Assembly: GCF_029870955.1 (NCBI RefSeq)
Contig: NZ_PGFQ01000001.1
Location: forward strand, 2,790,001 to 2,854,000
DNA: 64,000 bases
Source: Sulfitobacter faviae
GTDB lineage: Bacteria > Pseudomonadota > Alphaproteobacteria > Rhodobacterales > Rhodobacteraceae
Reading direction: 5' to 3'
Shown here: piece after piece, positions 461 to 63,742 of the stretch
How the letters are laid out: the number at the start of each line of letters is the position of its first letter
Position numbering within the stretch: position 1 is the stretch's first letter
Translations under genes and position numbers: made by a program
Notes under the pieces: model-generated
Databases searched by the model: none
What the model was told of the DNA's origin: nothing
The model's input: the letters and a program-made list of their open reading frames with translations, nothing else

Positions 461-628
461 GGGTCAGCGCCTGACCGTGGGGTGGCGATTGCGACGCCGG
501 TCCATGCCACTTTATGGCGCAGCCGTGATGCGCCTTATCGCAGAAGCGCCCCGCCTCACCAAATCGCCAGCCCGCCGGGACGGGCAGGCGATGGCCCGGC
601 GCCTGCGGCTTGATTCCGGGCCGGGGAA
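461..628 (+). repeat. Dispersed palindromic repeat, copy A
   Basis: An intergenic element of about 165 bp between the thioesterase and DUF1127 genes. Its right part (582-625) is identical over 44 bases to the reverse complement of 63579-63622. The inner 15 bases at 503-517 (catgccactttatgg) also match copy B (63687-63701, inverted). The ends form an inverted repeat: gggcaggcgatggccc at 582-597 faces a degenerate partner, gggtcagcgcctgacc, at 461-476. No protein-coding function is supported, although the core can be translated as the MARRLRLDSGPG peptide, which is probably a spurious ORF tail. Confidence 0.8.
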
Positions 629-641
629 TTCTCAGAGGCCA

Positions 642-668
642 CAAAAAAGGGCCGGGAAAACCCGGCCC
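642..668 (-). terminator. Rho-independent terminator of the DUF1127 gene
   Basis: On the minus strand an 8-bp GC stem (gggccggg/cccggccc, 649-668) with a 4-base loop is followed by six T residues (plus-strand a's at 643-648). It lies 33 bases past the DUF1127 stop. Confidence 0.85.
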
Positions 669-700
669 GAGGAAGAGGTCTGGCAGTCGCCACAGGGAAG

Positions 701-931
701 CTACGCCTGCCAGAACACGCGGGAAGCCTCGGCCGAGGCTTGTTCCGGTGTCAGTCCCGCATCTTCAAGCTCCCAGGGTTCAAGCGCGGCAAGCGCGATC
801 CGGGTGCGTCGGCGGGCCGCCCATGTGGTCACGACAGCCGCAAAGCGCAGCGCAATCACCGCAGGGACCGGCAGGGCGCGGTATGTCATCAATGTCATTG
901 CATCAGCGGTAAGGGGGCGTGCCTGTGTCAT
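701..931 (-). CDS. DUF1127 (YjiS-like) small protein
   Basis: A 76-residue protein. The C-terminal region has the DUF1127 pattern: an arginine-rich helix (AARRRTRIALAAL) followed by EPWELEDAGLTPEQA, which matches the family's L..L....L.DiGL.r..a signature. DUF1127 proteins in alphaproteobacteria are small and often RNA- or stress-related, but this one has no established role. The start at 931 is chosen over an upstream in-frame ATG because AAGGAG lies 8 bases in front of it. It is transcribed divergently from the MocR-type regulator gene, and the shared promoter region carries repeated AAATTGTAT-type sites, so the regulator may control it. Confidence 0.75.
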   Translation of the reverse strand: MTQARPLTADAMTLMTYRALPVPAVIALRFAAVVTTWAARRRTRIALAALEPWELEDAGLTPEQASAEASRVFWQA

Positions 932-946
932 GGGGGGAACTCCTTG

Positions 947-1056
947 AAATTGTATTGGCAAAATTGTATTGACACAAAGTGTAGAATGCCTACAGGTGCA
1001 AAGGTACAAAGCGCGATACAATTTGACCACAGGAATATTGTGATGGGTACAATTTG
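947..1056. promoter_or_regulatory. Candidate MocR operator array, divergent promoter region
   Basis: Two identical direct repeats AAATTGTATTG occur at 947-957 and 961-971 (14-bp period). Inverted versions ATACAATTT (1016-1024) and TACAATTTG (1048-1056, just inside the regulator gene) follow. A TTGACA at 969-974 overlaps the second repeat and could be a -35 element for the regulator. MocR regulators such as PdxR and TauR typically bind direct repeats in their own divergent promoter. The layout fits that, but binding is inferred. Confidence 0.6.
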
Positions 1057-2458
1057 GCAGCCGACATTGGCCGAGGGGCAGGGGCCGAAGTACAAACTCG
1101 TCGCGCTGACCATCCGGCAGGGGATTAACTCTGGCGCTTTGGCGGTGGGGGATAAGCTGCCGCCGGTGCGGGAACTGGCGTGGCAATTGGGGATTACCCC
1201 CGGCACCGTGGCGCGGGCCTATACCATCCTCACCGATGAGGGTCTGTTGGAGGCCGAGGTGGGCCGTGGCACCTTTGTCGCCCCGCCGCAGGCGGCCATC
1301 CGCGAGGATGTCTGGAATCGCGAACAAGATAGTTGGATCAAGGAGTTGGAGGTTGCCGATACGGATGCGGTCAGCCTCTTCAGCCCGCGCCTGCCGGACA
1401 TGGGACAGGTGGCGCTGATCCGCAGCGCCCTACGGCAGGTGGCGGATGTGCCAGGCGAAGACCTGATGAACTATCCCACCCGCGACGCCTATGCCCCGGT
1501 GCGGCAAGCGGTGGTCAACTGGCTGTCGCATCTCGCGCTCGGGCCGCTGAGCGAGCGTGACGTTGTGCTCTCGCATGGCGGGCAGAGCGGGATTGTATTG
1601 GTACTGCAAGCGATCCTTTCAGGGCCGAAGCCGGTGATGCTGGTCGAAGATCTCTCCTACGCCGGGTTTCGCCGCGCGGCAGAGGTGCTGCGCGCCGAGG
1701 TGGTCGGGGTGGCGATGGACGCAGAGGGCGTGCTGCCAGAGGCGCTGGACAAGGCCGCGCGCGACAGCGCGGCGCAGGTCTTTTGCACGACGCCGGAGGT
1801 GCATAACCCTACGGGCAGCCACACCAGCCTTGAACGGCGGCGTGCGCTGTTGGAAGTCGCCAAACGGCACGGGTTGGAGATTTTGGAGGATGACTGCTAC
1901 CGCATGGGCCTCGCCCGCGCGCCGAGCTACCGCTCGCTCTGGCCTGAGCATGTCTGGCATGTCTCTTCGATCTCAAAGGAATTGACGCCTGCCTTGCGGG
2001 TGGGGTTTGCGCTGGCGCCCGCAGGCCGTGCGGCGGACCTGCGGCGGGTGGCGGAATATGGCTATTTCGGCCTCGCCCGTCCCTTGGCCGAAGCCACGCG
2101 GATTCTCCTGACGGACCCACGGCTCAAGGCGATCTGCGCCGATATTCGCGAAAGACTGGCGGAATATGTCGAAGTGGCGGTCAACCATCTGGGCGGCCAC
2201 GCTTTGGAATGGTCGCGCGATGTGCCCTTTCTCTGGCTGCAACTCCCGCCGGGGTGGCGGGCTGCCGGGTTCTGCCGCGCGGCAGAGGCGCAGGGCGTGC
2301 AGATCCGCTCGGCCGATGAATTCGCCCTGCGCGATGGCCGCGCGCCCCATGCGGTGCGCATCGCGGTGAACGCCCATGTCTCCCTGCGCTCTTTCGAGGC
2401 GGCGATGCAGCGGCTGCGCTGCCTTCTGGACAATCCACCGGAGCAGATCAGCGTGTAG
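1043..2458 (+). CDS. MocR-type (GntR/aminotransferase) transcriptional regulator
   Basis: A 471-residue chimeric regulator. Residues about 12-80 form a GntR winged helix (IRQGINSGALAVGDKLPPVR, then LAWQLGITPGTVARAYTIL), and the rest is a fold-type I PLP-dependent aminotransferase-like domain. The PLP lysine is in SSISKELTPALR (K312), and the substrate-binding region includes HNPTGSH. Such proteins use PLP or an aldimine as effector rather than acting as enzymes. An upstream in-frame ATG at 740 would run antisense through the DUF1127 gene, so I take 1043, where the conserved sequence begins. Repeated operator-like sites lie between it and the divergent DUF1127 gene. The regulated pathway is not evident from the neighbours. 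Confidence 0.85.
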   Translation: MGTIWQPTLAEGQGPKYKLVALTIRQGINSGALAVGDKLPPVRELAWQLGITPGTVARAYTILTDEGLLEAEVGRGTFVAPPQAAIREDVWNREQDSWIKELEVADTDAVSLFSPRLPDMGQVALIRSALRQVADVPGEDLMNYPTRDAYAPVRQAVVNWLSHLALGPLSERDVVLSHGGQSGIVLVLQAILSGPKPVMLVEDLSYAGFRRAAEVLRAEVVGVAMDAEGVLPEALDKAARDSAAQVFCTTPEVHNPTGSHTSLERRRALLEVAKRHGLEILEDDCYRMGLARAPSYRSLWPEHVWHVSSISKELTPALRVGFALAPAGRAADLRRVAEYGYFGLARPLAEATRILLTDPRLKAICADIRERLAEYVEVAVNHLGGHALEWSRDVPFLWLQLPPGWRAAGFCRAAEAQGVQIRSADEFALRDGRAPHAVRIAVNAHVSLRSFEAAMQRLRCLLDNPPEQISV

Positions 2459-2528
2459 AAATATGGGGTATTATTATACCTAAATCGCAACGTATTGTTT
2501 TAGCTGATAAAATCAGGGATTGCTGCGC

Positions 2529-2556
2529 TTGACCCGGCGATGCAGGTGTTTATAAC
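2529..2556 (+). promoter_or_regulatory. Promoter of rplM-rpsI
   Basis: TTGACC (2529-2534) and TATAAC (2551-2556) are separated by 16 bases and lie about 60 bases before the rplM start. This is the best sigma-70-like promoter in the gap. Confidence 0.6.
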
Positions 2557-2618
2557 GCCTCCATCAGACACCGGGCGGGGATTCCTCGTTCCGACCAACC
2601 TCAAACGGGAATTCATCC

Positions 2619-3080
2619 ATGAAAACCTTTTCTGCGACACCGGCAGATATCGACAAGAAATGGATCATCATCGACGCCGAAGGCGTCGTGCTGGGCCGTC
2701 TCGCCTCGATCGTTGCCATGCGCCTGCGCGGCAAGCACAAGCCGTCCTTCACGCCGCATATGGATTGCGGCGACAACGTGATCGTCATCAACGCCGACAA
2801 GGTGCAGATGACCGGCAAGAAGCGCGAAGAGCACTTCTACTGGCACACCGGCCACCCCGGTGGCATCAAATCGCGCACCAAGGCACAGATCCTCGAAGGC
2901 GCGCATCCTGAGCGTGTTGTGACCCAAGCGGTCAAGCGCATGCTGCCCGGCAACCGCCTGAGCCGCCAGATCATGACCAACCTGCGCGTATATGCAGGTA
3001 GCGAACACCCCCATGAGGCGCAGAGCCCCGAAGTTCTGGATGTCAAATCCTTGAACAAGAAAAACACGCGGAGTGCATGA
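2619..3080 (+). CDS. rplM: 50S ribosomal protein L13
   Basis: A 153-residue L13, an early-assembling protein of the large ribosomal subunit. Diagnostic sequences include [16 protein letters not shown] near the N-terminus, [18 protein letters not shown] in the middle, and [21 protein letters not shown] near the C-terminus. The start at 2619 gives the usual alphaproteobacterial N-terminus (MKTFSATP). It is the first gene of the conserved rplM-rpsI operon: the stop codon overlaps an ATG, and the preferred rpsI start is 3 bases further on. A promoter with TTGACC/TATAAC lies upstream. Nothing in the sequence is abnormal. Confidence 0.97.
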
Positions 3081-3082
3081 GC

Positions 3083-3582
3083 ATGGCTGACGAAATCAAA
3101 TCCCTCGACGGTCTGGAAGCAGCCGTGACCGACAACATCGGCGGCGTGCAGGGCACCGAGACCGAAGTGACCCCCGTGAGCCGGTTCGTGACGAACTGGG
3201 CCGCGCCTATGCCACCGGCAAGCGTAAAGACGCGGTCGCCCGCGTTTGGATCAAGCCCGGTTCCGGCAAGGTCATCGTGAACGGCAAGCCGCAGAACGAA
3301 TACTTCGCGCGCCCTGTGCAGCAGCTGATCCTCGCGCAGCCTTTCGGCATCACCAACACCGAAGGCCAGTTCGACGTGATCGCGACTGTCAAAGGCGGCG
3401 GTCTGTCCGGTCAAGCGGGTGCGGTCAAGCACGGCATCTCCAAAGCCCTGCAACTCTACGATCCCTCCCTGCGCGGTGCGCTGAAAGCGGCAGGCTTCCT
3501 GACCCGCGACAGCCGCGTCGTCGAGCGGAAGAAATACGGTAAGGCCAAAGCGCGCCGGAGCTTCCAGTTCTCCAAGCGTTAA
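3083..3582 (+). CDS. rpsI: 30S ribosomal protein S9 (one-base frameshift in the read sequence)
   Basis: S9 of the small subunit, whose basic C-terminal tail (RRSFQFSKR) reaches the P-site tRNA. The start at 3083 is preferred over 3077 because GGAG sits 9 bases before it. As written, the frame breaks in the acidic N-terminal extension at a CCCCC run (3171-3175). Adding one C gives [27 protein letters not shown] in frame and restores a normal 166-residue protein that includes [14 protein letters not shown]. The gene is essential, so a sequencing or assembly error is far more likely than a real mutation. It is the second gene of the rplM operon and is followed by a terminator. Confidence 0.93.
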
Positions 3583-3603
3583 GCTTACCGGTCATATTTT
3601 GCG

Positions 3604-3634
3604 AAAGGGCTGCCCTCCGGGGTGGCCCTTTTTC
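3604..3634 (+). terminator. Rho-independent terminator of rplM-rpsI
   Basis: An aaagggc/gcccttt stem with a GC-rich loop runs into five T residues, 22 bases after the rpsI stop. Confidence 0.8.
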
Positions 3635-3666
3635 GTTGCGGTGGGCAGGGTTGGCCGCGGGACATG

Positions 3667-3699
3667 AAAAAGGCCGCCGCGGTTTCCCGCAGCGGCCTT
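3667..3699 (-). terminator. Terminator of the outer-membrane protein gene
   Basis: Read on the minus strand, aaggccgctgcggg and cgcggcggcctt pair in a long GC stem with a small loop. It ends in a run of T's and lies about 30 bases past the stop. Confidence 0.8.
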
Positions 3700-3730
3700 A
3701 GGGTCGGATCGCCTTTGATCCTAAATCGGC

Positions 3731-4420
3731 TTAGCCGCCGATTTCGTAGCTCACGGTGAAGCCCAGCACGCCGTCGCCATCGTTGGTGTCTTCGTAAAGC
3801 GCTTCGAAAGTGACGCCGTCACCGAAGTCATAAACGGCACCGGCTTCGGCATAGATGTTGTCGTCGCGGTCGCTGTTGCCGATGAGGCCAACGGCGGTCC
3901 AACGCTCGGACAGGGGCGCTTCGAACGCGACTTCCTGATCGCTTTCGCCATTGTCGGGATCGATGATCACGGCGAATGCGCCCGAAGCGTCACGCCCGAT
4001 GGGGAAGCCCAGCGTCGCGGTGATCTCTTCGCTGTGATCTTTGGAATCGTTCAGCCAGATGTAGCCATAGGTCAGATCCCAGCTCAGGCCTTGACCGAAG
4101 TCCGCGCCGTAGCCGAGGTTCGCTTCGAATTCGACGTCATCGGTGGGGTCTTGGTAAAGCGATGTCGCGCTCAGCCCGGTGTGGAAGCCGCCGTAGGTCA
4201 GCTCGACAAAACCTTCGACTTCGTTCTCAACGTGATCGAAATCATCCGACGTGTTGAACCGTGTCGCGGCAGAGACGCCGGCGGTCCAGCCAACCATGGA
4301 AGTCATGCTGCGGTCTTCGATGACCGGGTCGAAACCGGTAGTGACGTTTTCCTGCGCATAGGCAGCAGAGGAGAGCAGCCCGGCGGTGAGGCCGAACCCG
4401 ATAAGATGTTTGATATTCAT
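3731..4420 (-). CDS. Putative outer-membrane beta-barrel protein
   Basis: A 229-residue exported protein. Residues 1-22 are a signal peptide (basic MNIKH, hydrophobic core, AYA cleavage site). The mature part is acidic and made of alternating short amphipathic strands rich in glycine and aromatics, for example FVELTYGGFHTGLSATSLY and LSWDLTYGYIWL, and it ends in a strand, VLGFTVSYEIGG. This fits a small porin-like barrel in the outer membrane, although the last residue is not the usual aromatic. I cannot assign a named porin family. It stands alone, with its own terminator. The exported barrel call is reasonable and the function is unknown. Confidence 0.65.
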   Translation of the reverse strand: MNIKHLIGFGLTAGLLSSAAYAQENVTTGFDPVIEDRSMTSMVGWTAGVSAATRFNTSDDFDHVENEVEGFVELTYGGFHTGLSATSLYQDPTDDVEFEANLGYGADFGQGLSWDLTYGYIWLNDSKDHSEEITATLGFPIGRDASGAFAVIIDPDNGESDQEVAFEAPLSERWTAVGLIGNSDRDDNIYAEAGAVYDFGDGVTFEALYEDTNDGDGVLGFTVSYEIGG

Positions 4421-4658
4421 GGCATTTGCCTAGTTTTGGACCATAGCTTGTCTGCGACTGGCGAGGTCAGGTTGTGAAGGCCCCTCGGATAGGGCGCTCT
4501 CCGGGGGGCGGCAAGGCCCGATTGCGCATATCTGGCATGCGTTAGAACATAACATTGTGATCGACGGAAATTTCGCCCAAGTCGTTGGTTTTTATCAGGC
4601 GACGTGGTTCCGGGCGGGGCTGTGCCTGCCTATATCAGCCCCAACACAGGAGACAGTC

Positions 4659-5654
4659 ATGCAGTATTCAGTTCTTGATCTTGCGCCCGTGCCCGAAGGG
4701 TCGGATACCACCACCGCCATCGCCAATTCGGTCGCTCTGGCGCAACTGGCCGAGGCCAAGGGCTATCACCGGTTTTGGATGGCGGAGCATCATAATATGC
4801 CCGGCATCGCTTCGGCGGCGACCTCGGTTCTGCTGGGTCATGTGGCGGATCACACGAAAGAGATTCGCGTCGGCGCGGGCGGGGTGATGCTGCCCAACCA
4901 TGCGCCCTTGGCCATTGCCGAACAGTTCGGCACGCTTGCGGCGATTCATGGTGACCGGATCGATTTGGGGCTGGGCCGCGCGCCGGGCGGGGATCAGGCG
5001 GTGATGCGCGCCATGCGCCGCGGCATGATCGCGGGCGATCAATTCCCCGATGACGTGGCCGAGTTGATGGCCTATCTCGGCGCGCCCGATCCCCGCGCGC
5101 CGGTGCGCGCCCATCCGGGTGAGGGGACGCATGTGCCGATCTGGATCCTCGGCTCCTCGCTCTATGGCGCACAATTGGCGGCGCATTTTGGGCTGCCCTA
5201 TGCCTTTGCCTCGCATTTCGCGCCGGATGCGTTGGAAGAGGCCGCGGCGATCTATCGTCGGGATTTCAAACCGTCCAAAGCCTGCCCCGAACCGCGTTTC
5301 ATGCTGGCGGTGAACGTCTTTGCCGCCGACACGGATGAGGAGGGCGCCTATCTGCGGACCACCATGCAGCAGGCTTTCGCCCGTCTGCGTACTGGCCGCC
5401 CCGGCAAGCTGCCAGCCCCGGTGCGCGACATCGATGCCGAGATCGGCGCGGGCCTGCGCCAAGGGGTCGACCACGCATTGCGCATCTCTGCGGTCGGCAG
5501 TCCTGAGACGGTGAAACGTCAGTTGGAAACGCTGATCGCGCAGCACCGACCCGATGAGTTGATCTTGACCGGGCAGATTCACGACCATAACGCGCGGCTG
5601 CGCTCGTTCGAGATTGCGGCGGATGTCTTGCAGGAGATGAAAGTGGCGGCCTAA
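4659..5654 (+). CDS. LLM-class flavin-dependent monooxygenase (luciferase-like)
   Basis: A 331-residue luciferase-like TIM-barrel protein expected to use reduced FMN and oxygen on an unknown substrate. Typical sequences are LDLAPVPEG near the start, [11 protein letters not shown] (residues about 45-55), [20 protein letters not shown] and the [12 protein letters not shown] stretch. These define the family 'LLM class flavin-dependent oxidoreductase, group 1'. The start at 4659 follows AGGAGA at good spacing, and an in-frame ATG at 4557 would add 34 unconserved residues. The divergent-end neighbour is a TetR gene (convergent). No partner reductase is visible. Family firm, substrate unknown. Confidence 0.85.
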
Positions 5655-5666
5655 GGGCCGCCGCCG

Positions 5667-6284
5667 TCACTCGTCGGGGCTGACCAGCCCCAAGCCGCGC
5701 AGATAAATCCCGATCCCGGTTTCCAGCAGGTCATCGGGCGGGAAGGGCGAGGCGCGACCGGGCGAGTTGCGGGCGAAAAGCTCGACCACCCCGTGGCTCA
5801 TCGCCCAGATATGGGCCGAGAACATCGAGGCGGGCGGGCGTTTGTCCGCCGGGATATGTTGGCTGAGGTCGGTCGCCGCGCGTTCCAGCACCGCATTGGC
5901 GCGGTTGGCGGCATGGGCCAGTTCCGGCGTGCGGTTGACCGAGATGCCGGATTCGAACATCGCGATGTAATGGCCGGGATGTTTGCGGGCAAAGGCAAGA
6001 TAGGCGCGGCCCGTCGCCTCAAAGGCTTTAAGTGCCGAGGGCTGGCCGGATTGATAGGCAAATTCCATCAAGTCGGCAAAGATATCATAGCCTTGATGCG
6101 CGGCCTCGGCGATGAGGTCTTCGCGGCCCTCAAAATGGCGATAGACCGCCGCCGGGGTGACGCCCGCGCGTTTGGCGGCCTCGGAAAGGGTGAAACCCGT
6201 GGGGCCGCGCTGCTCGATCAACTCAAGCGCCGCGTCGATCAGCGCTTGGCGCAGGTTGCCGTGATGGTAGCCGCGCTTAGGCAT
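5667..6284 (-). CDS. TetR/AcrR-family transcriptional regulator
   Basis: A 205-residue one-component regulator. Residues about 6-55 form the TetR DNA-binding domain: [19 protein letters not shown], then [27 protein letters not shown], a classical helix-turn-helix. The rest is an alpha-helical ligand and dimer domain of the TetR_C_33-like type. I choose the ATG at 6284 ([10 protein letters not shown]), which is the usual N-terminus of close relatives. It overlaps the stop of ppk2 by 8 bases, which suggests co-transcription with ppk2. An in-frame start at 6314 is also possible. Its targets are not evident from the sequence. Confidence 0.85.
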
Positions 6285-7145
6285 CCCAGATGTCCGGCCC
6301 GCCGCAGATTTCATCGTCGATCTTGCCGATCGCCTTGGCGTCTTTCTGAGGATAGTCGAAACGGTGCAGCAGATGGCGCATGGCCGCGAGACGGGCGCGG
6401 CGTTTGTCGTCAGAGCGGATCACCGTCCACGGGGTTTCATCCGTATGGCTGCGCAGCAATGTCTCGGCGATGGCGGCGGAATACTCCTCCCATTTCGCGA
6501 GACCTTTGACGTCGATGGGGCTCAGTTTCCACTGTTTCAACGGATCGGATTCGCGCGACAACATGCGGCGCAACTGCTCGGCCCGGCCCACGTTGAGCCA
6601 GAACTTGATCAGGTGAATGCCGTCTTCGACGAGCATCTGCTCGAACGGGGTGACCTGTTCAAAGAAATGCGCGCGTTGTTCGGGGGTGCAAAAGTCAAAG
6701 ACCTTTTCCACCACCCGCGATTGTACCAAGAACGGTCATAAAAAACCATCTCGCCCGCTGTGGGCAGATGTTTGATATAGCGCTGAAAATACCACTCGCC
6801 TTGCTCGGTTTCGGTAGGTTTCGACAGGGCCACCACCCGCGCGGACCGTGGGCTGAGGTTTTCGCGCATACGGCGGATCGTGCCGCCTTTGCCAGCGGCG
6901 TCGCGGCCCTCGAAAACCATGACCACGCGCTGCCCGGTTTCGCGCACCCAAGATTGCAGTTTGACCATCTCGATCTGCAAACGGTCATAGTCGCGCTCAT
7001 AGGTCTTGCGCGACAGACGTTCATCATGCGGGTAGCTGGGCGAAAGGATATCGTCCTTGTCGGCCCGCTGGATCGCTTGGCGGATGTCCTCGGGGGCGTC
7101 GTTTTCGTAAAAGGCGCTGATTGCGCCGTCAAAGGGCAGGTCCAT
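6277..7145 (-). CDS. ppk2: Polyphosphate kinase 2 (one-base frameshift in the read sequence)
   Basis: PPK2 transfers phosphate between polyphosphate and nucleotides. The N-terminal part has the P-loop [10 protein letters not shown] (residues about 80-89) and FYDRSWYNR. The C-terminal part continues in another frame with [32 protein letters not shown] and [11 protein letters not shown]. The two join when one base is added to a three-base C run at 6714-6716 (plus strand), giving the standard [14 protein letters not shown] and a 289-residue protein of normal class I length. Probably a sequencing error. It is transcribed upstream of, and overlapping, the TetR gene. Donor and acceptor preference cannot be decided here. 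Confidence 0.9.
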
Positions 7146-7194
7146 GGGCGCTCCTTGCGGGTTGTTCTTGTTTCAATATGGGATGTTAAGGCGA

Positions 7195-8174
7195 TTAACG
7201 CAAACCGGCACGGGCGGCGGCGCGGTCGATGGCATCCACCACCGCCTGCGGGTCGGCGTGATGGGGCATATGGCCCATGCCGGGCAGGCGGGTCAGGGCG
7301 CCGTTGGGGATGTCTTTGATCAGTTCCTCGGCGTGGATATGCATCGGCACAATGGTATCGGCATCACCGTGAATGATTTCGACCGGCATGGTCAGGCGGT
7401 CATATTGCGCGGCCATTTCAACCACATGCGGGCGGAGTTGATAAACCTGTTGCGCATTGGCGCGGCTGGCGCTGCGGCGCAGAGTGAGGCCCGTGCCGAT
7501 GTGATCGGCATAGCCTTCGGGCGCTTGCTGTGGGGCAAAGATCGCCGCGATGCTGCTTTGCACCACGCTGTCGGGGACAAAGGCGGTGACGGCGGGGATA
7601 AAGAGCGCCCCGCCAAGCCGTGAGGCGCTGACGTTATAGAGCCAGCCGAGACCGCCGGGCCAAGGCTCCGACACGGCAGAGACCAGCACCAGCGCTGCGG
7701 TCTCATCAGGGCGTTGCAGCCCCAAGCCAGCGCCACGGCCCCGCCAAAGGAATGGCCCAGCACGATGGGGTTTTCGACACCCAGTTGATCCGCCGCTTTC
7801 TGCAAGAGTGCGGCCTGTTCCTGCGGCGACTCGCCGCGCGGGTTCCAAGGCCCGCGCGCGCCGGGCAGGCGGGCGGTATAGCCCATGCCGGGACGGTCGA
7901 ACATGATGACGCGGTAGCGGTCGCTCAGCCGCTCAGCGAAGCCCAGAGTAAAATCGCGCAGGTTGCCGCTGGCCCCGTGGATCAGTACCAGATCGGGCCC
8001 GCTGCCGATGATCTTGGCATGGACCGGCAGGCCATCCACCGTGATGATCTCACCCTCGGGCGGATGGCTTGCCTCGGCCCGCGCCTCATGCCGCGCGGCA
8101 CGCCATTGGACAAGCGCGGTGAGCAGCGCCAGCCCGAGGAGGAGGGCAAGCAGCAGTTTAATGGCCGATCTCAT
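7195..8174 (-). CDS. Alpha/beta-fold hydrolase, membrane-anchored (one-base frameshift in the read sequence)
   Basis: An alpha/beta hydrolase with an N-terminal hydrophobic anchor (residues about 4-24), so it is probably tethered to the inner membrane with its catalytic domain outside. The catalytic set is visible: oxyanion region LIHGASG, nucleophile elbow GHSFGG, acid loop HGDADTIVP and base GMGHMPH. The gene is split at a four-base C run (7720-7723 plus strand). Adding one base gives [18 protein letters not shown] in frame and a 326-residue protein. It starts 17 bases inside the end of metA, so the two are probably co-transcribed. The substrate is unknown. Confidence 0.85.
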
Positions 8175-9992: not shown

Positions 9993-10004
9993 GTATCACC
10001 AAGG

Positions 10005-55277: not shown

Positions 55278-55342
55278 GATCTGCCCTTATTTTGTTGGAG
55301 TTATTCCATACCCGCGGATTCTCGCCTTATCAAACTTTTAGC

Positions 55343-55371: not shown

Positions 55372-55377
55372 GAGGTC

Positions 55378-55452
55378 ACTGCTCGATAGGTTTCTTGCCT
55401 GTATGAAACCTGCCTCAATAACTTACGCCCGCCTCGCGCGGGCGTTTTTTTT
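55378..55452 (+). ncRNA. Candidate small RNA
   Basis: About 75 bases, between the binding-protein gene (divergent) and bdhA. The first hairpin is AGGTTTC (55388-55394) with GAAACCT (55405-55411) around a 10-base loop. A single-stranded stretch of about 13 bases follows, then a strong terminator (acgcccgc/gcgggcgt, 8 bp, loop of 5) with T8. No ORF of sense length is inside. There is no plus-strand gene upstream that the terminator could serve, because the neighbour runs the other way. I do not recognise the family. It could also be an attenuated leader of bdhA. Confidence 0.5.
55425..55452 (+). terminator. Strong terminator upstream of bdhA
   Basis: An 8-bp perfect GC stem (55425-55432 and 55438-55445) and a 5-base loop are followed by eight T's. 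It is oriented toward bdhA but ends about 100 bases before its start. Confidence 0.9.
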
Positions 55453-55553
55453 GGCCAATTTTCACCGACCCTTAAGCTCCTTCGCGCAAACCCTTTCCCT
55501 TTGGCGCGCGCGCAGTACATGATGCAGGCGCAGCATGAACAAGGAGACGCGCC

Positions 55554-56339: not shown

Positions 56340-56344
56340 GCGCC

Positions 56345-57379
56345 GTGGCGGTCAAGAAACGCATCAACCTCGCCCTCCAAGGCGGCGGCGCCCATGGCGC
56401 TTTCACTTGGGGGGTGCTTGACCGGCTGTTGCAGCAGGACGATCTGGATATCTGCGGGATCTCGGGCACCTCGGCGGGGGCGCTGAACGGGGCGGCATTG
56501 AAATCGGGGATGATCTCGGGCGGTCGCGAGGGCGCCCGGGAGAACCTTGATTGGCTTTGGGCGCAGGTCTCTGGCATTTCGGACCTGCGGCTGTCCCATT
56601 GGCTGGCGCCTTTCGGTTTGGACAAGCTCAGTCAGGCGATGGAATATTCGCTGCCCATGGCAATCTCGGATTCGCTGACGCGGGTCGTGTCACCCTATGC
56701 TTACGGCCCGTTCTATCGCAACCCGCTCGAAGATGTCGTGGCGCGGTTCGACTATGGCAAAGTGGGCGCGCATAAGCCGCCGTTCTTTTTCGTCTGCGCC
56801 ACACGGGTGCGCAACGGCAAGATCAGGGTGTTTGAGGGGGACGAGATCGGGCCTGATGCCTTGCTCGCCTCAGCCTGTCTGCCGACGATCTTTAAGGCGG
56901 TTGAGATTGACGATGCCCAGACCGGCCAGCGCGAAGCGTTTTGGGACGGCGGCTATACCGGCAATCCGGCGCTGTTTCCGCTGTTCCGCGATGACCTGCC
57001 CGAAGATATCGTGGTGGTGAACATCAACCCGCTCGACCGCGAAGACCTGCCGGTCACACCGCAGCAAATCCAGAACCGCATCAATGAGATCAGCTTTAAT
57101 TCCAGCCTCTTGCGCGAGATGCGGGCGATTGACTTCGTTCAGCGGCTGATTGCGGATGGCACCCTGCCGGAGGGGCGGATGAAGCGGGTGCACATGCATA
57201 TGATCGCCGACGACGCGCTGATGGCGCAGCTGTCGGTGGCGACGAAACTGATGCCCAACCCGGCGGTGATCCGGGCGCTGCATGAGGCAGGCGTGGCGGC
57301 GGCGGATCGGTTTCTAGAGGAGCACTTCGACGATCTGAACCAGCGCAGCAGCGTCGATCTACCCGCGATGTTCGGCTGA
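56345..57379 (+). CDS. Patatin-like phospholipase
   Basis: A 344-residue lipid acyl hydrolase, probably cytosolic. The oxyanion hole is in LALQGGGAHGAFTWGVLD (residues about 9-26), the nucleophile is in GISGTSAGALNG, and the catalytic Asp is in FWDGGYTGNPALFPLF (DGG). These form the Ser-Asp dyad. It resembles patatin genes found next to 3-hydroxybutyrate dehydrogenase in proteobacteria, and its action on polyhydroxybutyrate granules or phospholipids is possible. The start is the GTG at 56345, 5 bases after the bdh stop. Its end overlaps the convergent DUF502 gene by 21 bases. Confidence 0.88.
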   Translation: MAVKKRINLALQGGGAHGAFTWGVLDRLLQQDDLDICGISGTSAGALNGAALKSGMISGGREGARENLDWLWAQVSGISDLRLSHWLAPFGLDKLSQAMEYSLPMAISDSLTRVVSPYAYGPFYRNPLEDVVARFDYGKVGAHKPPFFFVCATRVRNGKIRVFEGDEIGPDALLASACLPTIFKAVEIDDAQTGQREAFWDGGYTGNPALFPLFRDDLPEDIVVVNINPLDREDLPVTPQQIQNRINEISFNSSLLREMRAIDFVQRLIADGTLPEGRMKRVHMHMIADDALMAQLSVATKLMPNPAVIRALHEAGVAAADRFLEEHFDDLNQRSSVDLPAMFG

Positions 57380-58111
57380 GTTTTCAGGGTCCGACAGCGC
57401 CAGCGCCTCGGGCAGATCGGCACCGGGGCGCGGCGGATAGACCAGCCCGGCAGAGATCACCAGCTTCGCCGCGTCTTCGACGCTCATGTCGAGTTCGATC
57501 ACATCCTCCCGCGGCAGGAACAGTAAGAAGCCAGAGGTTGGGTTCGGCGTGGTGGGCAGAAAGACCGAGAGCATCTCGCCGCCCGCGTTGGTACGGGCCA
57601 AGACCTCTCCCTTCGCCTCGGTCGAGATGAAACCAAGCGCCCAGATGCCGCGCCGGGGGTATTCGATCAGGCAGGCGGTCTCAAAGCTCCGCTCGGACTG
57701 GGCGAAGATCGTCTCGGAAATCTGTTTGATGCCGGAATAGATCGTCCGCACGACGGGGGTGCGTTCCACCAGACTTTCGGCGAAGCGGATCATCGAACGG
57801 CCAATCAGCCCTTTCGCGGCCCAGCCCACCATGACGGTGAAGATCAGAAAGATCACCACCCCAAGGCCACGCACGTTGAACTGCATCGACGGGTCGAGAC
57901 CCAAGAAATCTTGGAGCAGCCGGTCGGGATGGTAGGCTTTGGGCACCAATGGCAGCACGAAACCGTCGATCCAACCGACCACGCTCCAGATCAGCCAGAT
58001 GGTCAGCCCGACAGGCGCAATCACGACCAGACCGGTCAGGAAAGACGCGCGCAGCCTTGCGACAAGGCTGCGCCGAACCTGCGTTGGGTCGGGATCAAAA
58101 GGTGTGTTCAT
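57359..58111 (-). CDS. DUF502-family membrane protein
   Basis: A 250-residue protein with two N-terminal transmembrane helices (LRASFLTGLVVIAPVGLTIWLIW and FNVRGLGVVIFLIFTVMVGWAAKGLIG) and a conserved soluble part with RTPVVRTIYSGIKQISETI, LIEYPRRGIWALGFIS and FLPTTPNPTSGFLLFLPREDVIELDMSVEDA. This is the DUF502 pattern. Its function is unknown. The start at 58111 (MNTPFDPDP) gives the usual N-terminus. A longer in-frame start at 58144 exists. The 3' end overlaps the patatin gene. Confidence 0.9.
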   Translation of the reverse strand: MNTPFDPDPTQVRRSLVARLRASFLTGLVVIAPVGLTIWLIWSVVGWIDGFVLPLVPKAYHPDRLLQDFLGLDPSMQFNVRGLGVVIFLIFTVMVGWAAKGLIGRSMIRFAESLVERTPVVRTIYSGIKQISETIFAQSERSFETACLIEYPRRGIWALGFISTEAKGEVLARTNAGGEMLSVFLPTTPNPTSGFLLFLPREDVIELDMSVEDAAKLVISAGLVYPPRPGADLPEALALSDPENSAEHRG

Positions 58112-58195
58112 CTGCGCCGTTTTCCGAAGAGTTAATCGCAACATAGCTAAGGCGTATGCCCCGGCCCGGCAATGGCTCCGCGGTGTTTTTCGCCT

Positions 58196-59128
58196 TTAAC
58201 GCGGCAGGTTGACGAGGTTTGCGGCGATCTTGGCCCCCAGCCGGGCATTGTTGCGCACCAGTGCGATATTGGCGGTCAGCGAACGGCCCTCGGTCAGCTC
58301 GAAGATGCGTTGCAACAAGAAGGGGGTCACGCCCTTGCCGTGGACCCCTTGAGCATCGGCCTCGGACTGGGCCTGCGCGATGATTGGGGCGAGTTCGGCG
58401 GCGGGGATTTCCTCTGCCGCGGGGATCGGGTTGGCCACCAACTGGCCGCCGGGCAGGCCCATGGCGGCGCGGGTGCGGTGGGCTTTGGCAAGGGCAGCGG
58501 CATCATCAAGGCGCAGCGGCGATTGCAGGTCCGACCCTGCGCTCCAGAAGGCGGGGAAGCTGTCTTGGCCTACGGTGATGACCGGCACGCCTTGGGTTTC
58601 CAGCACTTCCAGCGTCTTCGGTACGTCGAGGATCGCCTTGGCGCCCGCCGCGATAACGGTGACGGGGGTTTGGGCCAGTTCCATGAGATCGGCGGAGATG
58701 TCAAAGCTCTCTTCCGCGCCCTTATGCACGCCGCCGATGCCGCCGGTGGCGAAGACTTCGATGCCCGCAAGATTGGCGGCGATCATGGTGGCGGCGACGG
58801 TGGTGGCACCTGTGCCGCCCGAGGCGATGCAGACGGCCATATCGGCGCGCGACAGTTTGGCCACGTCTTTGGCTTGGGCCAGATCGCTCAGCTGGTCATC
58901 GTCTAGACCAATGTGCAGCGCGCCACGGATCACGGCGATGGTGGCGGGCACGGCGCCTGCGTCGCGAATGTCCTGCTCAACCTGCCGCGCCACTTCGAGG
59001 TTTTGCGGATAGGGCATGCCATGGGTGATGATGGTGCTTTCCAAGGCCACGATCGGCGCGGCGTTCTCGCGGGCCTTGGCCACCTCGGCGCTGAAGGTCA
59101 GGGGCAGGGCGGATGTGGCGGTGGTCAT
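58196..59128 (-). CDS. psuG: Pseudouridine-5'-phosphate glycosidase
   Basis: A 310-residue enzyme that splits pseudouridine 5'-phosphate to uracil and ribose 5-phosphate. Conserved stretches are VALESTIITHGMPYPQNLEVA, GAVPATIAVIRGALHIGL, VAKLSRADMA with the catalytic Lys, and ASGGTGATTVAATMIAANLAGIEVFATGGIGGVHKG. ANPIPAAEEIPA and a helical C-terminus complete it. The ATG overlaps the stop of the kinase gene upstream (ATGA). With the kinase it forms a complete pseudouridine salvage route. Confidence 0.96.
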   Translation of the reverse strand: MTTATSALPLTFSAEVAKARENAAPIVALESTIITHGMPYPQNLEVARQVEQDIRDAGAVPATIAVIRGALHIGLDDDQLSDLAQAKDVAKLSRADMAVCIASGGTGATTVAATMIAANLAGIEVFATGGIGGVHKGAEESFDISADLMELAQTPVTVIAAGAKAILDVPKTLEVLETQGVPVITVGQDSFPAFWSAGSDLQSPLRLDDAAALAKAHRTRAAMGLPGGQLVANPIPAAEEIPAAELAPIIAQAQSEADAQGVHGKGVTPFLLQRIFELTEGRSLTANIALVRNNARLGAKIAANLVNLPR

Positions 59129-60009
59129 ATCTTGGTCTCTCCGGAAACGTAAAGGGCGGCGGCATCGAGTGCTGCCTTGAGGGCGGATTGCGCAACGGCA
59201 CCGCCAAGTTCAGCGGCCACATGGGCCGCCATGAATGTATCGCCTGCACCCGTGACCCGGGCGACATGCACCTGCGGCGGGGTGAGGGTGATGATCTCGT
59301 CGCCTTGGCCCACGGTGGCGGGGTTGCCGCCGTCGGTCACCACGGCACGGCGTGCGCCACGGGCCAGCAGGGCGCGGGCGGCGGTTGGGGAATCGTCAAA
59401 GCTCGACTGGCAGAGCAGCCCGGCTTCTTCGAGGTTCACGTAAAGCGTGCCGCGCCCGGCCTTGAGGAAGGGCGTGAGCCGCAGCGCCTTGCCGGGAGAG
59501 GCGGGCGCGACGCGCAGGTCGGCCTTTGCCAACAGCGGGCTTTGCGCCATCCGGGCCAGCAGTTCGACGGTCAGGTTGCCATCAAGCGCCACGGCCCCTT
59601 CGTAGGGGCTGGGCAGGCTGCCATCCTCCAGCGGGCGCAGGATCTTGTCGCCCGCAGCCTCCAGCGAATGGGCATCGGCAATCGCGGCGATCAACCCGTT
59701 GGACCCTTCGACGGCCATGTAACGGTCGGTCGGCAAATCGTCCGAGCGGTAGACGTGATCGGTGATCAGCCCGCGCAGGGCGCAGGCGGCGATCAACTCA
59801 TCCCCTTCGGCATCGCGCCCCACGGCGGAAAGCAGCGCCGGCGTCAGCCCAAAGCGCGCCAGCGCCATGCCGATGTTCAGGGCCACGCCGCCGGGCAGGC
59901 GGGTGATCCGCCCCGGCATGTCAGAGCCTTGGCGCATGGCGTTTTCAGAACGGCCGATCACGTCCCAAAGGACGGAGCCGATGCAAAGGATGTCAGCTGT
60001 CTTGGTCAT
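59125..60009 (-). CDS. psuK: PfkB-family kinase, probably pseudouridine kinase
   Basis: A 294-residue ribokinase-type enzyme. The N-terminus has ILCIGSVLWDVIGRSE, the glycine-rich RLPGGVALNIGMALARFG follows, and the catalytic GAGDTFMAAHV motif is near the C-terminus, with the Asp base. The adjacent psuG, joined by ATGA overlap, assigns it to pseudouridine phosphorylation. Without this context a general PfkB sugar kinase would be the safe call. No transporter for pseudouridine is present here. Confidence 0.85.
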   Translation of the reverse strand: MTKTADILCIGSVLWDVIGRSENAMRQGSDMPGRITRLPGGVALNIGMALARFGLTPALLSAVGRDAEGDELIAACALRGLITDHVYRSDDLPTDRYMAVEGSNGLIAAIADAHSLEAAGDKILRPLEDGSLPSPYEGAVALDGNLTVELLARMAQSPLLAKADLRVAPASPGKALRLTPFLKAGRGTLYVNLEEAGLLCQSSFDDSPTAARALLARGARRAVVTDGGNPATVGQGDEIITLTPPQVHVARVTGAGDTFMAAHVAAELGGAVAQSALKAALDAAALYVSGETKI

Positions 60010-60051
60010 GCGGCGCTTCTAGCCGCCAAATCTCCCCACGCGCAAGCGGCG

Positions 60052-60879
60052 TTATTGTGGCACCGCGAATGTCAGCGCCGCCCAGAGCGTTTCCCAGACC
60101 GGTTGATCGGGGTCGTAGCCCGCGCTCGCCTGCGCCTCTGCCGCCGGGCGCAGCACCACCGCGTCAAAGAGGTATTCATGGCCGGCCGTGACCGGAATCA
60201 GTGCTTCGCCCGCCGCATCGGTGCGGTGGAGGGTGATGGTCACGCTGTCATCCGGCGCGCGGTCGAACACTTCGATCTGCGCGTTGGCGCGAGGGGTGCC
60301 TTGATAGAGGAGTGCCACCTTCATCTCACCCGCGAAATCTACGGCATAGGGATTCGCCAGCGCCACGAACTCCGTCGCCATGCCGGTGGGCGCATCCTGC
60401 CCCGTGCCCGCGCCGAGGGCGATCAGGGTTTTGACGTGGCGGGTGTAGCTTTCGACGACCTTCTCGGTCGACCAGCCGTTCGCGCGGTGATCGCTCTCAG
60501 CCTTAGGGAAGTCCTTATGCGCGGCGAACCGGAGGAACTTGTCGAAGTCCTCATAGGTGACTTTGGAAGGCGTCGTTTCGGCCACCGCCACCACCAGCGC
60601 GTCACCCTCGGGCGCGGGGAGGCTCAGGGCAGGGCTGTCGCCCGCGCGCGGCGATAGCGGGACCTCTTTCCCGCCGATTTTGACCTCAAAACGCGTCAGC
60701 CGGTTGGGCAGATAGGGAAAGGCCGCGCCGGTAAATTCCTCACCATTGCGAAAATGCGCCGCGATCTTTTCACCGCTTTCCACTTGATAGTTCACCGGCG
60801 ACAGCCAGTATTCATGTGCAAAGGCAGGCACTGCCGATAAGATACTGAAAATAATAGCGGACAACTGGGACAGTTTCAT
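60052..60879 (-). CDS. DUF4198 periplasmic protein (NikK-like)
   Basis: A 275-residue exported protein. Signal peptide MKLSQLSAIIFSILSAVPAFA, then AHEYWLSPVNYQVESGEKI and a beta-rich domain of DUF4198 type, ending FDAVVLRPAAE..WETLWAALTFAVPQ. The HEYW motif after the signal peptide fits DUF4198 members placed beside nickel/cobalt transporters, where they may bind metal in the periplasm. The start is 60879 or 60894. The ATG overlaps the ATG of the divergent HupE gene by two bases, so the promoters must lie inside the opposite gene or the starts are wrong. Confidence 0.78.
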   Translation of the reverse strand: MKLSQLSAIIFSILSAVPAFAHEYWLSPVNYQVESGEKIAAHFRNGEEFTGAAFPYLPNRLTRFEVKIGGKEVPLSPRAGDSPALSLPAPEGDALVVAVAETTPSKVTYEDFDKFLRFAAHKDFPKAESDHRANGWSTEKVVESYTRHVKTLIALGAGTGQDAPTGMATEFVALANPYAVDFAGEMKVALLYQGTPRANAQIEVFDRAPDDSVTITLHRTDAAGEALIPVTAGHEYLFDAVVLRPAAEAQASAGYDPDQPVWETLWAALTFAVPQ

Positions 60880-62022
60880 GAAGAGAACTTTCATTTTGTT
60901 AAGATCCAAGCTGGCGTTGCTGTGGCTGTTGTCAAGCGCGGTGCTGCTTTCGGCGGGCGCGGGTGCACAGGCGCATGAGGTCAAACCAACGATCGCGGAT
61001 CTGACCGTGGCCGACGGGCGGGCGGTGCTGGCGCTGGAGGTCAACCTTGAAGCGCTCTTGGCGGGCATCGACCTCGATACCGTCGAAGACACCGACAATG
61101 CCGAGAATGCGAGCGATTACGATGCGCTGCGCAGCCTGCCCGCCGCGCGCATCGCCGACCGCGCGCCTGAGCTTTTGCCGAAGTGGAACAGCCTGCCGCT
61201 GCTCAGCGTCGATGGCGCCGCCGTGCCGTTGGAGAGTGTGACACTCGAGGTGCCCGATGGGGTTGCCGCCGAACTACCGCGCGACAGCCAGTGGCGGCTG
61301 GAGGGCGCGGTGCCTATGGGCGCCGAAGAGGTACAGGTGACGTGGACGGATGGCGCGGGCGCGCTGGTGCTGCGCCAGCAAGGGGTGGAGGCGCCCTATA
61401 CCGGATATCTGTCGGGCGGTGAGACCAGCCCCGAAATCGCCCTTGGGGCGGTGATGCTGAAAGCGGCTGGCAGGCTTTCGTCAGCTACATCCCGGTCGGG
61501 TTCGATCACATCCTGCCGAAAGGGCTGGACCACATCCTCTTTGTCTTGGGCCTATTCTTTCTGTCGACCCGCCTACGGCCTTTGATCTGGCAGATCACCG
61601 CCTTCACGCTGGCCCATACGGTCACGCTGGCGCTTGGCGCCTTGGGCTGGGTCAACGTGCCGGGGGCCATCGTCGAGCCGCTGATCGCCGCGTCGATCAC
61701 CTATGTCGCGGTCGAGAATATCTTTCACTCCGCCCTGAACCGCTGGCGGCCTTTGGTGATCTTTGGCTTTGGGCTGTTGCACGGGCTTGGCTTCGCCTCG
61801 GTGCTGGGAGATTTTGGCCTACCTGCGGGGCAATTTGTGCCTGCGCTCATCGGCTTCAACATCGGGGTGGAACTGGGCCAGCTGGCAGTAATCGCCATCG
61901 CCTTCGTTTTGGTCGGCTGGGCGATGAATCGCGACTGGTACCGCCGCGCCATCGCGGTCCCTGCCTCCTGCGTCATCGCGGCGGTCGGGGCCTATTGGTT
62001 CATCGAACGGGTGTTTCTGTAA
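60878..62022 (+). CDS. HupE/UreJ-family metal transporter (one-base frameshift in the read sequence)
   Basis: A membrane protein whose family moves nickel or cobalt. N-terminal signal-like segment (LALLWLLSSAVLLSAGAGAQA, then HEVKPTIADL), a periplasmic domain and a C-terminal HupE/UreJ module with about six helices, including ILPKGLDHILFVLGLFFLS, FTLAHTVTLALGALG, ASITYVAVENIFHSAL and FGFGLLHGLGFASVLGDFGLP (the HGLGFA motif). The frame breaks at GGGG (61445-61448). One added G gives ALGGGDAESGWQAFVSYIPVGF. Corrected length is about 381. It is paired with the DUF4198 gene. Confidence 0.85.
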
Positions 62023-62028
62023 GCAAGC

Positions 62029-62052
62029 GGGCAGCCCTTAACCGGGCTGCCC
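62029..62052. repeat. Inverted repeat between HupE and ThiE-like genes
   Basis: gggcagccc (62029-62037) and gggctgccc (62044-62052) are exact inverted repeats with a 6-base loop. It lies between convergent genes and has no T-run on either strand, so its role as terminator is uncertain. Confidence 0.6.
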
Positions 62053-62062
62053 TAGGGGCCGC

Positions 62063-62686
62063 TTAGCCCTGCATGGCGGCGATCAGAGTGGCGAGTTCGG
62101 CCACCGGATCGTCTTTGTCCCAAATCTCGGTCCCGATGCCGAAAAAGTCGGTCCGAGGGGCGAGGTCGCGGATCATGTTGATGTCGAGCGCGCCTTCGGC
62201 GACGACGGGCACTTCGATGACTTCGGACCACCACTGAAACAGATCGGCCTCGGCAAAGCTTCCATCGCCAAGGGCGCTGGCTTGGGTCGGGCCGAAGCTG
62301 ATGTAGTCCGCTCCGGCTTCGCCAGCCGCCATCCCCTCATGCCGCGATGTGCCGCAGAAGGCGCCGACGATGGCATCTTCGCCCAGTTCTTTGCGGGCAT
62401 GGCGCACGGTGCGAGCGGCATCGCTAAGGTGTACACCGTCAAGGCCAAGCTTTTCGACCAGCAGCAGATGATCCGAGATCACCAAGGCCACGTCGCGCGC
62501 ATGGGTCACTTCGCGCAGCGCGTCACCGGCGCGGGCGAGGCGGTCTTCATCCCGGGTCGAAAGCGCCATGCGCACACAGGCCACCGGATGGGCGTCGAGC
62601 ACGGCGGCGAGTTGCGCGGGGAATTGGCTCAGCTCAACTTCGGGCGGGGTGATAAGGTAAATCTGCGGCTGTTCTGGCGCGTCCAT
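62063..62686 (-). CDS. ThiE-like thiamine-phosphate synthase family protein
   Basis: A 207-residue TIM-barrel protein of the ThiE/TenI family. Recognisable parts are YLITPPEVELSQFPAQL, ALVISDHLLLVEKLGLDGVHLSDAARTV, VGAFCGTSRHEGMAAGEAGADYISFGPTQAS and a phosphate-binding PVVAEGALDINMI. ThiE joins the HMP and thiazole parts of thiamine. This sequence deviates in the pyrophosphate loop, so TenI-like or unknown activity is possible. The ATG at 62686 has AAGGACA at good spacing, whereas the GTG at 62692 is too close. No other thiamine genes lie here. Confidence 0.75.
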   Translation of the reverse strand: MDAPEQPQIYLITPPEVELSQFPAQLAAVLDAHPVACVRMALSTRDEDRLARAGDALREVTHARDVALVISDHLLLVEKLGLDGVHLSDAARTVRHARKELGEDAIVGAFCGTSRHEGMAAGEAGADYISFGPTQASALGDGSFAEADLFQWWSEVIEVPVVAEGALDINMIRDLAPRTDFFGIGTEIWDKDDPVAELATLIAAMQG

Positions 62687-62808
62687 GGTCACTGTCCTTA
62701 ATCGGGTCTGGGAGCCTGACTAGCGCAGGGCGTTGCAAAAGAAAACGGATATGCGTGTGTCGCGCGGGCTTTCTTGCGGTGCTGCGGCGCAGGGGCTATG
62801 AGGCGCGC

Positions 62809-63571
62809 ATGACAGAGACATCCTCCTCCCCCGTTCAGCCCGCGCCGATCCCGGCCATCGTGCTTGTCCGCCCCAGATGGGCGAGAACATCGGCGCCGCG
62901 GCGCGCGCGATGTGGAATTTTGGCCTCGATCACATGCGGGTCGTGGCCCCGCGCGACGGCTGGCCGAGCCAATCCGCCGTGGCCATGGCCTCGGGGCGGG
63001 GCGGCTGTTGGACGAGGCACAGCATTGCGCCGATCTGCCCGAAGCGCTTGGCGATTGCGATTTCACCTTTGCCACCACGGCGCGCAGTCGCGATCTGACG
63101 AAACCGGTCTACAGCCCTGAGGCTGCGATGCGGTTGGCGGCGGAGAAAATCGCGGCGGGCCAACGGGTTGCGGTGCTGTTCGGACCCGAGCGGGCAGGGC
63201 TTGAGAATGAGGATATCGCGCAGGCCAATGCCATCGTCTCGGTCCCGGTGAACCCAAAGTTCGCCTCTCTCAACCTCGCGCAATGCGTGCTGTTGATGTC
63301 TTACGAATGGATGCGGGCGCAGGGTGACGTGACCCATGAGGTGGTCGAGATGGCGGGCACCGATTGGGCCAAGGGCGCCGAGGTTGACCATCTGGCGCGG
63401 CATTATGAGGAGCAGTTGACTGAGGCCGGGTTCTTCTTCCCCGAGCATAAGGTTGCCTCGATGAAGCTCAACCTTCGCAACATGTGGTCGCGGATGCCGC
63501 TGACGCGGGCGGATGTGCAGATGTTGCATGGCATCCTGCGGCAAATGGTCCGCTGGAAGGAGAAGGGCTGA
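62809..63571 (+). CDS. SPOUT RNA 2'-O-methyltransferase, TrmJ-like (two frameshifts in the read sequence)
   Basis: A TrmH/TrmJ-type methyltransferase that 2'-O-methylates tRNA position 32 or rRNA. It is split at CCCC 62871-62874 (gives VRPQMGENIGAAARAMWNFGLDHM) and at GGGG 62993-62996 (gives ASGAGRLLDEAQH). Further motifs are VAVLFGPERAGLENEDI and VPVNPKFASLNLAQCVLLMSYE, motifs 2 and 3 of the SPOUT knot. The joined protein has about 254 residues, as in TrmJ. The repeat element copy B follows the stop. Confidence 0.88.
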
Positions 63572-63578
63572 GCCAAAG

Positions 63579-63742
63579 CCCGGCCCGGAATCAAGCCGCA
63601 GGCGCCGGGCCATCGCCTGCCCGCCCCACGGGGAGGCGATTTTGCAAAGCAATGCAACACCTTACGCATGTTGCACCATCGCTGAGCCATAAAGTGGCAT
63701 GACGGCCCCGTCGGATCGCCACCCCCGGGCAGGCGATGGCCC
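63579..63742 (-). repeat. Dispersed palindromic repeat, copy B
   Basis: An intergenic element, 8 bases after the methyltransferase stop. Its first 44 bases (63579-63622) are the exact reverse complement of 582-625, and 63687-63701 (ccataaagtggcatg) match 503-517 inverted. The two ends (63607-63622 gggccatcgcctgccc and 63727-63742 gggcaggcgatggccc) are perfect 16-bp inverted repeats of each other, so the transcript can fold into a long stem. Such MITE- or REP-like elements are non-coding. Confidence 0.85.

Follow-up and report, generated by a model that had tools for sequence, protein, structure and literature searches.

The window analysed here, a stretch of 64,000 nucleotides from Sulfitobacter faviae (contig NZ_PGFQ01000001.1, positions 2,790,001 to 2,854,000), carries near its two ends a palindromic repeat in inverted copies, A and B. 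The question raised by this locus is whether the two are a pair of their own, as the idea of an inversion between them would have it, or members of a larger family, and of what kind. Our answer, to which we give a probability of roughly 60%, is that A and B belong to an apparently undescribed family of non-autonomous, folded mobile repeats of ~163 nt, found in one bacterial family and of the same kind as the repetitive extragenic palindromic (REP), enterobacterial repetitive intergenic consensus (ERIC) and BOX sequences.

Anatomy and dispersal of the repeat

The inverted pair is real: BLASTN of A against the window returned B in inverted orientation (76.7% over 172 bp, E = 5e-27), and both identical blocks described in an earlier note on this DNA, one of 44 bases and one of 15 bases around CCACTTTATGG, are present. 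At least 37 core copies, A and B among them, were counted in the genome to which the window belongs (Sulfitobacter, 3.83 Mb; hereafter the own genome). These two are therefore not the only copies, and the dispersed family with a conserved core and a divergent middle that the note had suspected, similar to REP sequences or to miniature inverted-repeat transposable elements (MITEs), does exist. A 33-base core matched the genome 26 times at up to 3 mismatches, compared with 0 matches for a reversed control pattern. Copy counts are lower bounds, as 40 of the 61 own-genome candidates were scored for the core count. With dozens of copies in both orientations, the pair A/B is nothing special and its place at the window ends is accidental. 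Nor did the proposed inversion of about 63 kb through A and B find support, since the two sites keep their order, relative orientation and spacing of ~63-64 kb in five of five relatives (G003, G009, G024, G026 and G030), compared by site flanks and at the end points only.

Read in its own sense, the ~163-nt unit starts with the 5′ arm AGGGCCATCGCCTGCCCG, followed by a second arm, CGGGTCGGCGAT, and by a middle of ~75 nt which carries the conserved motif (T)GCCACTTTATGG. The second arm then returns as ATCGCCTACCCG and, beyond a short bulge, the first arm as CGGGCAGGCGATGGCCC, followed by a tail hairpin of the pattern GGCCCGG - GCC NNN GGC - TTGATT - CCGGGCC. In the copies aligned, a selection of full-length matches, ~25 nt of this tail extend past the 17-nt inverted repeat. 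The unpaired TTGATT loop and the CACTTTAT motif are conserved. In the window these parts are placed as follows:

460..622, plus strand: copy A, whole element (~163 nt; cmsearch R1 459-622, 145.6 bits; ends from alignments)
461..477, plus strand: copy A, degenerate 5′ arm GGGTCAGCGCCTGACCG of P1, the long stem (pairing counted)
479..489, plus strand: copy A, 5′ arm of the inner stem P2, GGGGTGGCGAT
505..518, plus strand: copy A, conserved unpaired motif TGCCACTTTATGGC
563..573, plus strand: copy A, 3′ arm of P2, ATCGCCAGCCC
574..579, plus strand: copy A, stem bulge, the place of an optional ~47-nt two-hairpin module in other copies
581..597, plus strand: copy A, 3′ arm of P1, CGGGCAGGCGATGGCCC, ending in GGCCC (593-597), the central segment common to the tail stem
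593..622, plus strand: copy A, tail hairpin P5 (GGCCCGG..CCGGGCC), with the conserved TTGATT internal loop at 610-615
63582..63743, minus strand: copy B, whole element (cmsearch R1 63744-63582, 148.3 bits)
63726..63742, minus strand: copy B, 5′ arm of P1, GGGCCATCGCCTGCCCG on this strand
63715..63725, minus strand: copy B, 5′ arm of P2
63687..63699, minus strand: copy B, conserved motif TGCCACTTTATGG
63630..63640, minus strand: copy B, 3′ arm of P2
63607..63623, minus strand: copy B, 3′ arm of P1, CGGGCAGGCGATGGCCC on this strand
63582..63611, minus strand: copy B, tail hairpin P5

Copy B had been credited with perfect 16-base terminal inverted repeats. The repeat is indeed perfect and is 17 bases long (63607-63623 / 63726-63742), but on one side it is not terminal, being followed by a conserved 25-nt stretch of the tail hairpin (63582-63606). 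In copy A one arm is degenerate, as had been seen, namely the 5′ arm.

The optional module in the bulge consists of two hairpins (GTCGCACC..GGTGCG and GGCACGCC..GGCGTGAC) and is present in 38 unique matches (41 joined matches minus 3 that join neighbouring copies), compared with 143 full matches without it. Independent mobility of the module was considered and rejected, given that 14 of its 17 own-genome pattern matches lie inside elements and 3 outside (assigned from coordinates). By eye, the module is reversed relative to the element in seven loci (L126, L130, L131, L153, L188, L209 and L212); these include Sulfitobacter sp. EhC04 and DFL-14, the latter carrying it also in the usual orientation (L167). 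Short forms of the element are recurrent and arise by deletion between the direct repeats ATCGCCTRCCCG.

The distribution of the family was followed with probes of different reach. The exact 23-base core occurs in 105 stretches of the named genome collection, and the 80 listed are all from Sulfitobacter. Consensus matches were found in 14 of 60 relatives (own genome included; thirteen candidates scored per genome), all of the same genus, while 51 of 295 same-family genomes (own included; two candidates per genome) have a match at E ≤ 1e-6. A covariance model built from 31 copies (alignment A2, see below) matches 188 of 292 genomes of the order, in 82 of 112 genera (nine candidates per genome); the best-scoring matches listed span the whole model and some weaker ones are partial. 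In the class sample (seven candidates per genome) this model matched 4 of 385 genomes, all of the own family, and none of the 380 of these 385 genomes that were assigned, by list order, to positions outside that family. The element has so far been found in one bacterial family only. Counted in twelve genomes with up to 150 candidates each, covariance matches range from 1 (G014) to at least 150 per genome (G077); the own genome has 54, including antisense matches of the same palindromes, as for copy B.

Placement behind genes and turnover at shared sites

Both copies lie beside gene ends, as the earlier note had stated: one predicted gene has its stop codon 12 bases from the start of A, and another has its own 10 bases from the end of B. 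The neighbouring features are:

19..447, plus strand: predicted gene of the 4HBT thioesterase family, ending 12 nt before copy A
649..668, minus strand: intrinsic-terminator-like hairpin with a T run, leftward-reading, just past copy A
63008..63571, plus strand: predicted gene with a SpoU-type methylase domain, ending 10 nt before the tail end of copy B

The hairpin at 668-649 suggests that a minus-strand gene converges on copy A; the simple codon-usage gene finder, whose calls are rough, missed this probable gene and put the next one 444 bp away. For a wider survey, the 237 detected copies were reduced to 179 by requiring 250-base flanks and removing repeats, and were grouped into 99 Sulfitobacter sites defined by matching flanks, copies of a site not being tallied by genome of origin. 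These sites comprise 48 convergent, 38 tandem (23 sense, 15 antisense), 6 divergent and 7 edge positions; for comparison, among window gaps of 100 bp or more, 18 are tandem, 11 divergent and 3 convergent. The 102 other-genus copies of alignment A3 (see below) fall into 44 convergent, 45 tandem (21 sense, 24 antisense), 2 divergent and 11 edge positions, compared with 12 tandem, 9 divergent and 0 convergent among the remaining gaps of 100 bp or more in their loci. No element lies inside a predicted gene, either at the 99 sites or among the 102 copies. These counts indicate that the elements are located behind genes and avoid promoter gaps, without a clear orientation preference. Convergent-gene gaps may be the places where insertion harms least, and effects on the neighbours (protection of mRNA 3′ ends, insulation of convergent transcripts), if any, would be secondary.

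More than one distinct copy is available at 27 of the 99 sites, and at 6 of these 27 the orientation of the element differs from copy to copy (139 pairs in the same orientation, 50 reversed). The tail reverses along with the rest of the element, as seen in the alignments of three sites (B, C and D). In the variable middle, same-orientation orthologues reach an identity of 0.629, as against 0.450 for reversed copies and 0.478 for unrelated ones. Inversion in situ was therefore rejected for the mixed sites: a reversed pair shows no greater likeness than copies that are unrelated, and this holds at matched flank identity too. Reversed copies with unrelated middles are different copies, which implies replacement and not inversion in place. 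This turnover argues for mobility, yet insertion against an empty site was not seen. Among S. faviae strains the flanks are 94.6-97.2% alike, while the element is 85-87% alike with a mosaic middle in two of three strain pairs and 98% alike in the third. The likeness of copies within a genome exceeds the between-genome mean in 18 of 21 genomes. At site B of G003 (L227), the element seems to be reduced to a remnant of ~30 bp, with AGGGCC joined to the tail end.

Alternatively, the repeat could be a structured mRNA 3′-end element that serves the host as a stabiliser, a terminator or an insulator of convergent genes, kept by selection and spread by gene conversion instead of transposition. Such a role would fit the strong conservation of the structure, the 27 sites occupied in more than one genome or by more than one copy, the mosaic middle between S. 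faviae strains, and the fact that convergent gaps are the commonest single class among both the 99 sites and the 102 other-genus copies. It agrees poorly with whole elements being reversed at shared sites, with the unclear orientation preference in tandem gaps, with the range from 1 to at least 150 matches per genome, and with the ends of A and B: no T run follows either tail, and there is no terminator call inside A. An intrinsic terminator, in particular, was considered and rejected, as the sole terminator-like match at A lies outside the element and B has one weak match near shuffle level. Overall, we find the host-serving explanation doubtful.

Long stem, tail stem and their common segment

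The pairing was evaluated on three alignments. A1 holds 121 of the 179 Sulfitobacter copies, after module-bearing and N-containing copies and those at least 92% alike were dropped. A2, aligned without structure, holds 12 Sulfitobacter-genus and 19 other-genus copies, the latter being 23 matches in L265-L284 minus 4 without the tail motif. A3 holds 102 other-genus copies fitted to the model, and thus leans towards the structure; they derive from the best-scoring matches (79 of 80 loci; L349, of the same genus, was excluded) and from 17 of the 20 loci L265-L284.

Outside an indel region, columns 23:115 and 19:125 carry the strongest mutual information in A1 (z 19 and 17, respectively), and both pairs are part of the long-range stem; the three signals that exceed them, at columns 168-175, are read as coming from the indel. 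Local hairpins in place of the long stem were rejected on this ground, the top co-varying pairs of A1 being long-range ones; in the middle region, small hairpins look good by eye and have no co-variation support. The co-variation term of RNAalifold on A1 is almost nil (-0.06 kcal/mol), because copies of one genus vary little there, and the support comes from A2 and A3. In A2, the 28 pairs of the long stem are paired in 91.3% of cells (79.8% in shuffled and 34-43% in slid controls). In 19 pairs both sides have changed, and double-changed cells number 78 compared with 23 in shuffled alignments. In A3, 93.5% of the long-stem cells are paired, with 394 double-changed cells versus 129 shuffled, and double changes occur in 23 of the 28 long-stem pairs (24 of 30 when two tail pairs are included). 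The tail stem has 10 double-changed cells in A2 versus 2.0 shuffled. Hence the stem P1+P2 and the tail P5 are backed by compensatory changes, the tail on two of its seven pairs only.

The central GGCCC segment is common to the base of the long stem and to the tail stem, and in A3 it changes together with both. Columns 5/144/196 read GCG in 56 copies, CGC in 25 and TAT in 10, so that both pairings are possible in 93 of 102; for the neighbouring triples they are possible in 88, 86 and 80 of 102. Since the central segment co-varies with both ends of the element, both of two mutually exclusive stems are maintained, and the three-way co-variation yields a concrete, testable prediction of both. The central segment is complementary to the 5′ end and to the tail of the element, and can pair with either. 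Spread may have occurred through a folded single strand recognised in trans by an enzyme, and the two exclusive folds could mark steps of the mobilising reaction. A more specific version of this proposal can be put forward tentatively: a mobile nucleic acid, common to the whole bacterial family and acting as a conformational switch, whose central segment pairs with the 5′ end or the 3′ tail, both pairings being kept over many genera. Its copies would be written again and again into the gaps that follow genes, in both orientations and frequently on top of an older copy, and the machinery would be neither a REP-associated tyrosine transposase (RAYT) nor a target-duplicating DDE transposase.

Quasipalindrome correction, whereby template switching during replication makes the arms of a palindrome alike, could in principle produce such stems without selection, the double changes being a mutational by-product. 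The joint change of four arm positions in A3 (TAAT 44, GCCG 38, others 20 of 102) and the few one-sided changes in A2 (25 cells, against 78 double-changed) are in line with this explanation. On the other hand, one position of the stem keeps a mismatch, at pair 25:117 of A2 (unpaired in 17 of 31) and pair 25:118 of A3 (72 of 102), and the unpaired TTGATT loop and CACTTTAT motif are likewise conserved. As it also leaves the spread and the placement unexplained, we consider it unlikely.

Search for a mover and known repeat families

The earlier note had suggested looking for a RAYT gene, but the Y1 transposase domain PF01797 is absent from the own genome (G000), as well as from G003 and G009; one match each was found in G007, which is element-rich, and in G434. 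Whole-element reversal at shared sites points to a mobilising activity other than the known RAYT. An autonomous version was looked for in the fetched loci, which are redundant, and rejected: a right half lies within 106 bp of 212 left halves and is missing from 1. A classical MITE, which would stem from a DDE transposon by internal deletion and carry its inverted repeats at the termini, is highly improbable despite the 17-bp inverted repeats, the many copies and a length at which coding capacity is not expected, because on the tail side the inverted repeat stops short of the terminus, the shorter forms look like deletions, target-site duplication is absent (observed values equal random flank pairing) and the fetched loci hold no gene-bearing version between the same ends. 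For the first and third of these reasons the term MITE, used earlier, finds no support in its strict sense.

Several results weigh against a family of mobile folded repeats. PF01797 is absent from 12 of 13 element-rich genomes, and the fetched loci showed no longer form enclosing a gene. No target-site duplication was found in Sulfitobacter (2.31, compared with 2.35 ± 0.08 for random flank pairing) or in the other genera (2.45 versus 2.38 ± 0.09). Ten sites of the own genome were looked up in 5 or 7 relatives, and eight of them were aligned. This gave copies, remnants or gaps whose divergence precluded a call, and not one clean empty site, so that insertion itself was never seen; L010 and L044 were not resolved, and L313 and L325 may be element-free but are among the gaps too diverged for a call. 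Both-side variation in the tail stem is limited to 2 of 7 pairs, a value reached by 132 of 500 shuffles. The evidence on the folding strand is conflicting: G.T and A.C cells stand at 74:20 in A1, at 11:11 in the inner stem of A1 and at 65:25 in A3, while folding energy shows no preference for the sense strand in A1 (p = 0.24) and favours the antisense strand in A3 (p = 0.001). Finally, the minimum-energy structure of copy A alone lacks the conserved stem (z -1.7), whereas the predicted fold of copy B is the conserved stem (z -3.4).

The claim that no described family covers the repeat is consistent with our searches. Rfam 15 has no match at gathering score in the window and none up to E = 0.5 in 6 loci, and no description was found in the open-licence literature searched for Sulfitobacter, Rhodobacteraceae, Roseobacter, Rhodobacter, Paracoccus, Ruegeria and the structured RNAs of Rhodobacterales; one in a subscription journal or an insertion-sequence database is possible. 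A structured repeat with model matches in 82 of 112 sampled genera of the order, and without an Rfam match, constitutes an annotation gap, and a covariance model able to find its copies now exists.

Among known systems, BOX of Streptococcus pneumoniae (boxA-boxB-boxC) has fixed outer parts and an optional central module of ~45 nt; the module described here differs in that its two hairpins are inserted where a long stem bulges, and in that it is found in both orientations. REP palindromes are short, about 20-40 nt, and the tail hairpin and the two-hairpin module presumably resemble such units. Three-way co-varying ends are not known from the RU repeats of enterobacteria. RU-1, RU-2 and RU-3 are ERIC-like intergenic repeats of 103-168 bp that have been reported as MITE-like (PMC2759123); their enterobacterial hosts set them apart, and the likeness is one of description. 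REP sequences and bacterial interspersed mosaic elements (BIMEs) with RAYT (Y1) transposases are likewise palindromic extragenic repeats in many copies (PMC2817692). Unlike them, the present unit is ~163 nt long, with a long-range stem and two exclusive stems, only its tail or module being REP-sized, and it occurs without a Y1 transposase in the own genome and in nearly all element-rich ones. HRC-8-4, a structured motif reported from Rhodobacterales only, is mainly found at one locus, between ccoNOQP and ccoGHIS, and its terminator-like stem and U run are unlike the dispersed 163-nt repeat (PMC8632094).

The element also occurs in 6 plasmid records (three S. faviae, one Salipiger, two Leisingera), and none was found in the phage records searched. 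Contig C2 of the own genome (214826 bp) matches plasmid NZ_CP139726 (96.8% over 3 kb). Its copies L017 (208957) and L018 (10123) have identical 400-base flanks and match the same plasmid stretch at 96.8%; the surroundings fit an untrimmed end overlap of ~16 kb in a circular plasmid, and the two listed copies may be one. In G077 (loci L398-L407), a genome of ~3.8 Mb with the at least 150 matches mentioned above, the listed copies on contig C1 are mostly on the minus strand at low coordinates, and a strand bias on this contig is possible. Tandem pairs of elements occur, and head-to-tail arrays of two or three elements, with a period of ~170-260 bp, were noticed at L148, L040, L046, L134, L274, L276 and L400.

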